Below the pieces are notes generated by a model. That model saw only the letters and a program-made list of their open reading frames with translations. It had not been told where the DNA came from and ran no database searches. Shown piece by piece: positions 2,250-49,583 of a stretch of 64,000 nucleotides of DNA. The position numbers and the translations under genes were made by a program. The stretch lies in assembly GCA_019359125.1 (NCBI GenBank), contig JAHHHY010000004.1, forward strand, positions 62,001 through 126,000, given 5' to 3'. The stretch's first letter is position 1. Each line of letters begins with the position of its first letter. The stretch comes from Pleurocapsa minor GSE-CHR-MK 17-07R. GTDB lineage: Bacteria > Chloroflexota > Anaerolineae > Aggregatilineales > Phototrophicaceae.

Positions 2250-2273
2250 GGGCGCCTCGCGAGGCGCCCCTAC
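2250..2273 (-). repeat. REP-like palindrome with GTAG head (copy 1)
   Basis: A perfect 20-bp palindrome, GGGCGCCTCGCGAGGCGCCC, is followed by CTAC. Read on the minus strand this is GTAG plus a hairpin, the layout of REP elements recognised by RAYT transposases. Copy 2 at 2357-2380 has the same core in the opposite orientation. Confidence 0.7.
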
Positions 2274-2356
2274 GCCACCAACCGCACGAAGAAAGAGTAA
2301 TCGTGATGGGTATTCGGCGTCAGGACAGTTCGTGATGACCTGCAAGATCGGCCCTT

Positions 2357-2380
2357 GTAGGGGCGCCTCGCGAGGCGCCC
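2357..2380 (+). repeat. REP-like palindrome with GTAG head (copy 2)
   Basis: GTAG is followed directly by the same palindromic core as copy 1. The two copies face each other about 90 bases apart, which resembles a BIME-type inverted REP pair. Confidence 0.7.
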
Positions 2381-24467: not shown

Positions 24468-24495
24468 GTAGTGGCATGGCATGCCATGCCACTAC
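24468..24495. repeat. 28-bp perfect GTAG...CTAC palindrome
   Basis: The left half is GTAGTGGCATGGCA and the right half is its exact reverse complement. GTAG stands at both ends. It lies in the gap between convergent genes. The core GGCATGCC is shared with the palindrome at 49556-49583. Confidence 0.75.
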
Positions 24496-36433: not shown

Positions 36434-36457
36434 GGGCGGCTCGCGAGCCGCCCCTAC
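36434..36457 (-). repeat. REP-like palindrome, GGCTCGCGAGCC core
   Basis: GGGCGGCTCGCGAGCCGCCC is a perfect 20-bp palindrome followed by CTAC, so on the minus strand it starts with GTAG. It differs from the 2250/2361 copies by one symmetric pair of bases, meaning a change in one arm is matched in the other. Confidence 0.7.
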
Positions 36458-40013: not shown

Positions 40014-40059
40014 GCAGTCTCAAAGCGTTCGTCTGGCTTCGTTTTGTGGAGGAATACAA

Positions 40060-41172
40060 ATGCGTAAATTGGTTCTTGGAGCAGCAGCCCTCGCACTTTC
40101 GGCAGTTCTCGGCGGGGCGGCCGTAAGCGCGCAGGATCTCATCCCTGTGTCGATCGTCCTCAAGTGGGTGCCGCAGGCGCAGTTCGCAGGCTATTATGCC
40201 GCGGAAGCGATGGGGTATTACGAAGAAGCAGGCCTGGACGTGACGATTATCCCCGCTGGCGTGGACATCAACCCGCAGCAGCTGCTCGCCTCTGGCGAAG
40301 CGGAATTCATCGTCGACTGGATGGGCAACGCGCTGGCGACCAAGGAAGCCGGCGGCGACCTGATCAACATCGCCCAGATTTACCAGCGTTCGGGCATGCG
40401 CCAGATTACCTGGATCGACAGCGGCCTGACCTCGTTTGAAGACCTGGGCGACCAGGTGGTGGGCGTGTGGTGCTGCGGCAACCAGTTCCCCACCTTTGCC
40501 GCGCTCACCAAGGCCGGTTTTGATGTGGACCAGCTGCAGGCTGACGGCCTGATCGCGCAGCAGGCGTTTGATATGAACGCCTTCCTGAACCGCGAAATCG
40601 CCGCGGGCAGCGCCATGACCTACAACGAACTGGCGCAGGTGCTGGAAGTCGTCGGCGAAGACGGCACCTTCCCCGTGTACACGCTGGAAGACCTGAACGT
40701 GCTGGACTTCAACGACTATGGCACGGCCATGCTGGAAGACGGCCTGTATGCCCGCACCGAATGGCTGGCTGAAGAAGGCAACGAAGACGTGGCGACCGCC
40801 TTCCTGGCCGCCAGCTTCCGTGGCTGGACTGCCTGCCGTGACGATGCCCAGGCCTGCATCGATGCCGTGCTGGCCGCTGGCCCCACGCTGGGCGTCGGCC
40901 ATCAGGCGTGGATGATGAACGAAGTCAACAAGCTGGTCTGGCCGTCGGAAAATGGCATTGGCATCCTGGATGCGGCCGCGTTTGACACCACCCACCAGAT
41001 CGCGCTGGACTTCGGCGTCATCACCGAAGCGATTGAAGGCGACGGCGTCATGTATCGCACCGACCTGGCCCAGGCCGCCCTCGACATGATCGTCGAAGGC
41101 TTCCCGGAAACCGATTTCTACGGCGCGGAATACGTGGCTGAAGAAGTCGCGGTCACGCCCAACGGCGAATAG
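40060..41172 (+). CDS. NMT1/THI5-like ABC importer, substrate-binding protein
   Basis: The 370-residue protein has a signal peptide (MRKLVLGAAALALSAVLGGAAVSAQ) and an NMT1 domain: VLKWVPQAQFAGYYAAEAMGYY and LLASGEAEFIVDWMGN. The segment GVWCCGNQFPTF matches the pyrimidine-pocket region of ThiY/THI5-like proteins, where a Gly-Asn-Glu stretch is typical. Candidate ligands are thiamine precursors (formylaminopyrimidine) or riboflavin, as for Chloroflexus RibXY. Neither a THI nor an FMN riboswitch was recognised. GTGGAGGAATACAA precedes the ATG. A terminator follows. Confidence 0.85.
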   Translation: MRKLVLGAAALALSAVLGGAAVSAQDLIPVSIVLKWVPQAQFAGYYAAEAMGYYEEAGLDVTIIPAGVDINPQQLLASGEAEFIVDWMGNALATKEAGGDLINIAQIYQRSGMRQITWIDSGLTSFEDLGDQVVGVWCCGNQFPTFAALTKAGFDVDQLQADGLIAQQAFDMNAFLNREIAAGSAMTYNELAQVLEVVGEDGTFPVYTLEDLNVLDFNDYGTAMLEDGLYARTEWLAEEGNEDVATAFLAASFRGWTACRDDAQACIDAVLAAGPTLGVGHQAWMMNEVNKLVWPSENGIGILDAAAFDTTHQIALDFGVITEAIEGDGVMYRTDLAQAALDMIVEGFPETDFYGAEYVAEEVAVTPNGE

Positions 41173-41187
41173 TCTCCACAGCTCTAT

Positions 41188-41228
41188 AAAAAAGAGGGGC
41201 AGGCCGGTGTCGGTCTGCCCCTCTTTTT
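41188..41228 (+). terminator. Rho-independent terminator of the importer operon
   Basis: AAAAAGAGGGGCAG pairs with CTGCCCCTCTTTTT, separated by 13 bases. It begins 15 bases after the stop of the binding protein. The symmetric A and T runs could make it act in both directions. Confidence 0.9.
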
Positions 41229-41232
41229 GTGT

Positions 41233-41685
41233 GCAGACGCGGCAGGCCGCGTCCCTACAGCGAAACATGATTCTGTAGGGACAACGCCCGCGTTGTCCGG
41301 TTGTGCACTATCCGACTTCTTCCCCGTTTGCCCGGCAGACGCGGCAGGACGCGTCCCTACAGCCAAACATGATTCTGTAGGGACAACGCCCGCGTTGTCC
41401 GGCCCCCACCGTTGTGCGACTTCTTCCCGGTTTGCCCGGCGGACGCGGCAGGCCGCGTCCCTACGGTGAATTATGATTCTGTAGGGACAACGCCTGCGTT
41501 GTCCGGCGGTGCATTGTCCAATTTCCCCCGTTTGTCCGGCGGACGCGGCAGGCCCCGCGTCCCTACAGCCAAACATGATTCTGTAGGGACAACGCGGGCT
41601 TTGTCCGACGGTGGATTGTCCAATTTTCCTCGTTTGCCCGGCGGACGCGGCAGGCCGCGTCCCTACGCCACAATGATTCGGGAAA
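41233..41685. repeat. Tandem BIME-like array of paired palindromes
   Basis: Units start at 41233, 41335, 41439, 41539 and 41641 (periods 102, 104, 100 and 102); the fifth is cut short. Each full unit has two hairpins facing each other: GGACGCGGCAGGCCGCGTCC followed by CTAC, then about 20 bases later GTAG followed by GGACAACGCCCGCGTTGTCC. So each unit is a pair of GTAG-headed palindromes in opposite orientation. The linkers differ between units, with GCCC or GTCC before each new unit. The array has no uniform spacers and is not a CRISPR. Confidence 0.85.
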
Positions 41686-41800
41686 AACCTGACACCCGGC
41701 CCGTCAGGACGCGGGTTTTGCCTGCTACAAGGCTGTTTTCAAAAAGACTATGCTTTTGTCATCAAACGAACGCAACACAAAAACAGCAGGAGATGACAAA

Positions 41801-42406
41801 ATGCTCGATTTTCTGAAGGTGAAGCAGCACAGGGTGATTACCGATCCGCCCTTCGTCACCCGATTCCTGACCGACTCGCGCTTCTCAGTCCTGTTCCTGG
41901 TCCTGCGCGTGTGGCTCGGCATCCAGTGGCTGACCTCCGCCGGTGGCAAGCTGACCAACCCGGAGTGGATGGAAACCGGCGTCGCCCTTCAGAACTACTG
42001 GCTGCGCGCCGTCGCCATCCCTGAAACCGGACGCCCGCCCATCAGCTTCGACTGGTACCGCAGCTTCCTGCAGGGCATGCTGGACGCCAACGCCCACACC
42101 TGGTTCGCCAAGCTGATCGTTTTCGGCGAGCTGCTGGTCGGTATCGGCCTGATCATCGGTGCATTCGTCGGTATCGCCGCCTTCTTCGGCGCCGTGCTCA
42201 ACTTCAACTTCATGCTCGCTGGGTCCGCCAGCACCAACCCTGTCCTGTTCGTGGTCGCTCTGATCCTCATCGCCGCCTGGAAGACCGCTGGTTTCATCGG
42301 CGCAGACTACTTCCTGCTGAACTGGATCGGCACCCCCTGGGCTCGTAACAAGTTCGCCGACTCGTCAGGGTCGCAGCAGAAGAAGGCCGTCACCCAGGCA
42401 GGCTGA
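41801..42406 (+). CDS. DoxX-like membrane protein
   Basis: The 201-residue protein has about four membrane helices (FLVLRVWLGIQWLTSAGGKL; WFAKLIVFGELLVGIGLIIG; FFGAVLNFNFMLAGSAS; NPVLFVVALILIAAWKTAGF) and the family block TNPVLFVVALILIAAWK...GADYFLL. DoxX/DoxD proteins include the subunit of archaeal thiosulfate:quinone oxidoreductase, and many bacterial members have no known substrate. ATG 41801 follows CAGGAGATGACAAA. Its codons favour C-ending forms more than the neighbours do. A terminator follows. Confidence 0.8.
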   Translation: MLDFLKVKQHRVITDPPFVTRFLTDSRFSVLFLVLRVWLGIQWLTSAGGKLTNPEWMETGVALQNYWLRAVAIPETGRPPISFDWYRSFLQGMLDANAHTWFAKLIVFGELLVGIGLIIGAFVGIAAFFGAVLNFNFMLAGSASTNPVLFVVALILIAAWKTAGFIGADYFLLNWIGTPWARNKFADSSGSQQKKAVTQAG

Positions 42407-42439
42407 CATCCCCGATAACTCCCCTAACACCCCTCCTCG

Positions 42440-42480
42440 GAAACACCCTCGATGACCACCATCGGGGGTGTTTCTTTGTT
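42440..42480 (+). terminator. Rho-independent terminator after the DoxX-like gene
   Basis: GAAACACCCTCGATG pairs with CATCGGGGGTGTTTC around a short loop, followed by TTTGTTT. The stem starts 34 bases after the stop. Confidence 0.85.
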
Positions 42481-49555: not shown

Positions 49556-49583
49556 GTAGCGGCTTGGCATGCCAAGCCGCTAC
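49556..49583. repeat. 28-bp perfect GTAG...CTAC palindrome
   Basis: The left half is GTAGCGGCTTGGCA and the right half is its exact reverse complement. It shares length, ends and the GGCATGCC centre with 24468-24495. The two differ at symmetric positions only, as expected if the hairpin is under selection. Confidence 0.75.

Follow-up and report, generated by a model that had tools for sequence, protein, structure and literature searches.

The tandem array of paired GTAG palindromes considered here lies directly behind a transcription terminator and in front of a DoxX-like gene, and it raises the question whether the array serves this locus or is a repeat that came and grew there without a local role. 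The window, that is, the whole stretch of 64 kb that was analysed, lies on contig C11 of a draft genome (G000; a 4.85-Mb assembly of 23 contigs); below, C-numbers are contigs of this genome and L-numbers are fetched sequence stretches. An earlier note had described a unit of about 102 bases in 4.4 copies, containing paired GTAG palindromes with unlike cores, and this description was confirmed by TRF and by REP calls. TRF gave a period of 102, 4.4 copies and 83% matches at 41236-41679, and a 12-mer of the unit recurs at successive spacings of 102, 104, 102, and 100 nt. The sequence GTAGGGAC was found nine times in the window, every time inside the array, where 0.46 occurrences are expected and none of 100 shuffles reached nine. 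Nine REP hairpins at 41235-41679 make up four complete units and half of a fifth (Table 1). They have the form GTAG followed by GGACnnnn-loop-nnnnGTCC, and a minus-strand core GCGG alternates with a plus-strand core AACG. The cores within each pair are therefore unlike, the linkers between successive pairs are 38, 40, 36, and 36 nt long, and pairwise identity among the complete units is 81-88% (12-19% divergence). The GTAG ends of each pair point inward across a spacer of 16 nt, which is "tail-to-tail" in the naming of Di Nocera (2013; PMC3733652).

Table 1. Positions of the array units, their neighbours and other GTAG REPs in the window.
Feature	Position	Strand	Description
ABC importer substrate-binding protein (NMT1/THI5-like)	40054..41172	+	Pfam PF09084, E 5.3e-28; upstream of array; start codon chosen by the analyst
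Terminator-like hairpin and T-run	41189..41228	+	Inverted repeat, 18-nt arms, 94% complementary; 3' of substrate-binding gene
Unit 1	41235..41336		GCGG REP (-) 41235-41258, spacer 41259-41274, AACG REP (+) 41275-41298, linker 41299-41336
Unit 2	41337..41440		GCGG-type REP (-) 41337-41360 with one stem mismatch, AACG REP (+) 41377-41400, linker 41401-41440
Unit 3	41441..41540		GCGG REP (-) 41441-41464, spacer, AACG REP (+) 41481-41504, linker 41505-41540
Unit 4	41541..41642		GCGG REP (-) 41541-41566 with 2-nt loop insertion, AACG REP (+) 41583-41606, linker 41607-41642
Half unit 5	41643..41679		GCGG REP (-) 41643-41666 and truncated spacer
Segment homologous to C3 (L031 2606-3698)	41381..42477		93.2% over 1099 columns
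DoxX upstream region (GGGAAAAACCTGACA...GCGGGTTTTGCCTGCTAC)	41680..41800	+	Similar in relatives by eye
DoxX-like membrane protein gene	41801..42406	+	Duplicated along with array on contig C3
Second REP family (GTAG followed by GGGCGCCTCGCGAGGCGCCC)	2250..2380		Inward-facing homodimer, 83-nt spacer
Single REP, second family	36434..36457	-	

When folded as single-stranded DNA, all four pairs were more stable than their shuffles (z -3.2 to -6.2), even the weakest being matched by only 1 of 200. The minimum-energy fold consists of a REP hairpin, a spacer hairpin and a REP hairpin in three of the pairs and differs in the fourth, and the two linkers folded, of four, were no more stable than shuffles. 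The REPs of the array are short hairpins with an unpaired GTAG tag at one end, as in the GTAG REP super-family, and their alternating orientation and tandem pairs are those of BIMEs and REPIN clusters. The second-order structure that had been called BIME-like, in which dispersed REPs form inverse pairs and the pairs are repeated in tandem, is borne out by this anatomy and by pairs throughout the genome.

The earlier note had proposed to look for the unit elsewhere in the genome and held that its occurrence at this place only would speak against such a structure. The unit has 38 BLAST matches in this genome, and the exact inward-facing pair pattern occurs 34 times, against none for a reversed control pattern; restriction to one place is excluded by these pairs and by further arrays. 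REPs of the same family number 94 in the window and 22 fetched stretches, which were picked for holding matches or transposase genes and in which one two-ended palindrome was counted on both strands. Their cores are AACG (27), GCGG (24), GAGG (21), ACGG (9), GATG (4), and others (9). The many dispersed copies typical of the GTAG REP super-family are thus present, and their extragenic position was checked on C11 and C3. Other GTAG palindromes are also seen. A second REP family (GGGCGC...GCGCCC) with partly similar spacers of 81-84 nt is found in the window at 2250-2380 and in L038 (2200-2331), L044 (4535-4664), and L047 (1645-1879), the copies in L047 adjoining a RAYT-like gene. Two perfect 28-nt palindromes of the window with GTAG at both ends (24468-24495 and 49556-49583) are 'double foot' REPs in the term of PMC6006769.

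Tandem arrays are present at no fewer than 11 loci (at least 11) of this genome, with unit lengths of about 85 to 145 nt. The linker is repeated within each array, and most arrays have a linker of their own. Wholly locus-specific linkers were rejected, since C11 and C3 have a common linker and those of L029 and L044a are related. Linkers as copies of flanking DNA were likewise rejected as a general rule, since neither flank is similar in 8 of the 12 arrays compared, the window's included. Linker sequence also lies in both outer flanks of L029 and in one outer flank of L044a, as if the element had been duplicated together with its flanks, which would be a different history. Weak similarity on one side is seen in L045 and L032; of the remaining eight arrays, L042b is borderline on one side, with a score reached by 11 of 200 shuffles.

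We consider it probable that the array is a BIME-type cluster of GTAG REPs which was spread by RAYT, grew by recombination or slippage and is a selfish or neutral repeat, most likely with no dedicated role at the importer/DoxX locus. The REPs would have been spread by a RAYT acting on single-stranded DNA, with the GTAG hairpin as its recognition and cleavage site. The starting module at the locus would have been two REPs of the same orientation with one inverted REP between them. The identical GCGG REPs would then have served as sites of recombination or replication slippage by which the module grew. This would account for the identical REP at the two ends of the window array and for the lack of linker sequence in its flanks. 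An odd number of REPs with an identical REP at both ends was found in 5 of the 11 arrays that have two or more units (window, L032, L040, L042, and L045). The number is even in 6 of the 11, the C3 array among them, and even-numbered arrays are outside the prediction of the simple module model, although the C3 array may be truncated.

Odd-numbered arrays fit growth of such a module by exchange between identical REPs, or else the rolling-circle model of Nunvar (2010), whose starting point is a direct pair of REPs enclosing an inverted one (PMC2817692). According to this model, RAYT itself would have made the tandem growth by cutting at two REPs of the same strand, forming a circle, copying it by rolling circle and re-inserting the product as a modular BIME. 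We hold this to be the less likely course. Its starting structure bounds the five odd-numbered arrays of this genome, and a bare three-REP module persists at L042 6222-6342. Against it, no RAYT with the REP family of the array was found in this assembly, and two relatives that bear such a RAYT, G007 and G001, have no exact-pair loci in tandem (0 of 8 and 0 of 9), where fragmented assemblies may have lost arrays.

Pfam Y1_Tnp has three matches in this genome (C16:1115, C4:56166, and C5:535798). The gene at C16:1115 is RAYT-like (NF047646, 67.7 bits), and a protein search gave a second RAYT-like gene at C16:238.8k (75.3 bits); RAYT-like proteins score 61.9-75.3 bits, all under the NCBIfam cut-off of 80. 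C4:56166 was rejected as a RAYT, being an IS200-type transposase (NF033573, 81 bits against a cut-off of 55), and the 8-kb stretch of the weak match at C5:535798 (L048) is free of GTAG hairpins. Many relatives have weak Y1_Tnp matches comparable to that of L048, often one per genome, which lie within long open frames (about 550-1280 aa). The REPs at C16:1115 and C16:238.8k belong to other families, GGGCGCGTCGCGACGCGCCC and GGGCAAGGCATGCCTTGCCC, so that neither of the two RAYT-like genes examined in the draft genome carries the family of the array. In this genome and its relatives together, a perfect GTAG hairpin lies within 300 nt of 14 of 20 RAYT-like loci versus 2 of 29 other Y1 loci, counts that are approximate because the gene limits come from search matches.

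In G007, the AACG REP of the array is located both within a RAYT gene and 107 nt upstream of it. In G001, this REP is inside a related RAYT gene, and related REPs are about 500 nt away. The two proteins are 97% identical over 121 of 153 residues; that of G007 has no Pfam match, and its matches in the genome of the array are only 51% and 39%. The GCGG partner was seen at no RAYT locus; at the loci of G007 and G001, GATG and GACG cores are present instead (GATG being the partner in G007). A GTAG REP is also placed in frame inside the RAYT gene, between the HuH motif and a conserved LG..IG.(F/Y)K, in 16 of 23 open frames from this genome and relatives (L194 2752-3488, which is C16:238.8k, and L176, L179, L181, L182, L184-L193, and L199). 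Thus C16:238.8k has a REP between HuH and Y and C16:1115 does not. REPs are found alongside the gene as well in 10 of the 16, the inner REP being of the same family by eye in nine. Such REPs inside RAYT genes were dropped as a novelty, since they have been described for subclass 2.4 (PMC6006769).

The REP family of the array may be an orphan in its own genome, as far as the sequences indicate, a status to be taken with caution because the assembly is a draft and REP or RAYT loci lie near contig starts (C1:171 and C16:1115). A more speculative extension, which we hold to be rather doubtful, is that the orphan family has been amplifying without its lost cognate RAYT, in arrays made by homology, one of which served as the breakpoint when the array was duplicated as a cassette along with the gene, its upstream region and its terminator. 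If true, it would separate the spread of REPs, for which the transposase is needed, from the growth of REP arrays, for which it is not.

Comparison with relatives bears on the same problem. The unit was detected by BLAST in 7 of 41 genomes searched, all of the same genus, and the exact inward pair is present in 7 of 15 genomes of the genus. With pairs counted as tandem when their starts lie no more than 300 nt from each other, G000 has 7 tandem cases among its 16 exact-pair loci, as against 0 of 9 in G001, 0 of 8 in G007 and 0 of 49 in G012. G012 is assembled in about 20 contigs, whereas the assemblies of G001 and G007 are broken into about 260 and 350, so arrays may have been lost in the latter two. 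The contrast between G000 and G012 within one genus bears on the question by what steps inverted REP pairs give rise to ordered tandem arrays. Homodimers are absent from G000 (0 of 16 loci, 3.6 expected, P 0.016), G001 (0 of 9, 3.3 expected, P 0.019) and G007 (0 of 8, 2.7 expected, P 0.042). A strict heterodimer rule was nevertheless rejected as a general constraint, since G012 has 19 homodimers in 49 loci versus 11.5 expected; these counts leave out G002 (32 pairs), G006 (1 pair), and G013 (1 pair). Among the matches listed, G002 has at least one close couple of dissimilar dimers.

Turnover of the array can be followed at its second copy on C3. The homology between C11 and C3 covers part of the array, the upstream region, the DoxX gene and its terminator; it starts inside a REP and ends just past the T-run of the DoxX terminator. 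By this alignment, the array marks one border of the duplicated gene segment. The right-hand half units (U5 on C11 and V3 on C3) are 97% identical (36 of 37 positions) and therefore correspond to each other. Among the C3 units, V1 and V2 share 98% identity with one another and 95% with the C11 unit U1; V0 is nearest to U3 (91% over 56 positions). The array consists of four pairs and a half on C11 and two pairs with halves on C3. Since unit number and order differ between the copies, the array must have turned over after the duplication, and the duplicated array is a within-genome record of this turnover. Variable array length, another mark of BIMEs and REPIN clusters, is thereby found between paralogues of one genome, one genome per species being available.

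On C3, the array starts at the stop codon of a LuxR gene, with no terminator between. At L031 2600-2606, the LuxR stop TAG overlaps the GTAG directly before the first REP, as if REP material had supplied the stop. A LuxR-type regulator is located upstream of DoxX in five of the six relatives displayed (L114, L067, L069, L115, and L070), as on C3, and is absent within 420 nt upstream of DoxX in L068. The gap between the two genes has no REPs in L114, L069, L115, and L070 and has REPs with other stems in L067; in L114, the importer genes flank DoxX at its other end, in opposite orientation. The LuxR-DoxX order in relatives makes C3 the probable ancestral arrangement; the window copy, in which DoxX runs in the same direction as the importer, would then be derived. 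Because the C3 array starts at the LuxR stop, a terminator neighbour is not common to both copies, and the terminator beside the window array is probably secondary, an accident of the duplication.

The neighbourhood of the window array has also suggested functional roles. As the earlier note had stated, the array is directly behind a terminator, only six bases away from a strong hairpin (41180-41232 folds as DNA at -20.8 kcal/mol, z -10.2). On the other side, the region before DoxX is a probable promoter/operator of that gene. By eye, a motif GGGAAACCCTGACA followed by GCGGGGTTTGCCTGCTAC, with variations, is seen upstream of DoxX in L069, L114, L115, and L070 and in the window at 41680-41730; it resembles an operator/promoter that may belong to the neighbouring LuxR-type regulator. 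The DoxX-like protein scores 21.0 bits against Pfam DoxX, under the cut-off of 23.6, and 43 of 60 named loci among its relatives are Chloroflexota by title, the closest being an Anaerolineae MAG (72%), by which the genome is probably Chloroflexota and Anaerolineae-like. The position of the array between co-directional genes, after a terminator and before the DoxX upstream region, would suit an element acting at the RNA level, with hairpins that either shield the importer mRNA at its 3' end or act as an insulator for the DoxX promoter. This is unlikely, because the terminator precedes the array and most importer mRNA should end before it, sister arrays of the same REP family are found at many other loci, and an Rfam search of 41100-41850 gave only matches below the gathering score.

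Still less likely is a functional gyrase site of the BIME-2 type that would absorb supercoils from the importer operon, as the earlier note had proposed together with IHF binding. An IHF site is present within only some BIMEs. With WATCARNNNNTTR as the IHF consensus, no match was found within the array and two elsewhere in the window versus 1.03 expected, so the claim of an IHF target was not upheld. The REP stems of the array differ from E. coli REP stems, which was also counted against a gyrase site. The architecture is the same as that of E. coli BIME-2, which is cut by gyrase, and the terminator is immediately upstream; however, the gyrase signal at E. coli BIME-2 is independent of transcription and rises when transcription is blocked with rifampicin, which poorly fits the collection of supercoils from a neighbouring operon (PMC6379681). 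The paralogue behind the LuxR stop codon, where no terminator intervenes, and the probably accidental adjacency of the terminator in the window also speak against supercoils of the importer operon collecting at the array. Finally, an assembly artefact, conceivable in a draft genome of 23 contigs, can practically be dismissed, because differences of 12-19% between the full units (81-88% identity) speak against a repeat made by assembling identical reads, two loci with unlike flanks carry the array and unit lengths differ in other arrays.

A repeat of the kind favoured here has close counterparts in known systems. E. coli BIME-2 likewise has two REP types alternating in tandem, and it differs in that the IHF consensus is absent from the window array. 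For TnpAREP/RAYT subclass 2.4, canonical long REPs with a G-C foot and 'double foot' REPs are described, and REPs are in frame between the HuH and Y motifs as in the RAYT frames here (Corneloup, 2018; PMC6006769); this likeness concerns the RAYT genes and not the array, whose REP family is without such a gene in its own assembly. REPIN clusters of Pseudomonas fluorescens SBW25, 16 in number, are also inverted REP pairs in tandem, and the largest has four REPINs and one REP, where the window array has four pairs and one REP (Bertels and Rainey, 2011; PMC3116915). The SBW25 clusters typically include flanking sequence, whereas most linkers of this genome resemble neither flank, and phylum and REP sequence differ. 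Bertels and Rainey inferred a second mechanism for clusters from the fact that not every REPIN-bearing genome has them (PMC3116915). In the GTAG REP super-family, as here, GTAG-tagged hairpins of 20-40 bp form dimers with unlike stems; dimer clusters reiterated in tandem with flanking DNA are reported, Chloroflexi included, and GTAG-23 elements of T. roseum are clustered at few loci (Di Nocera, 2013; PMC3733652). Those elements are from other species. REPs were predicted in three Chloroflexota genomes in a report whose account of them does not describe tandem arrays (PMC12306157). Tandem clusters of paired REPs, REPs of Chloroflexi and REPs inside RAYT genes are thus already in print, and in view of these reports (PMC3733652, PMC3116915, PMC6006769) the window array is a further example of a known repeat type, to which the comparison of the C11 and C3 paralogues and the contrast between G000 and G012 may be worth keeping.
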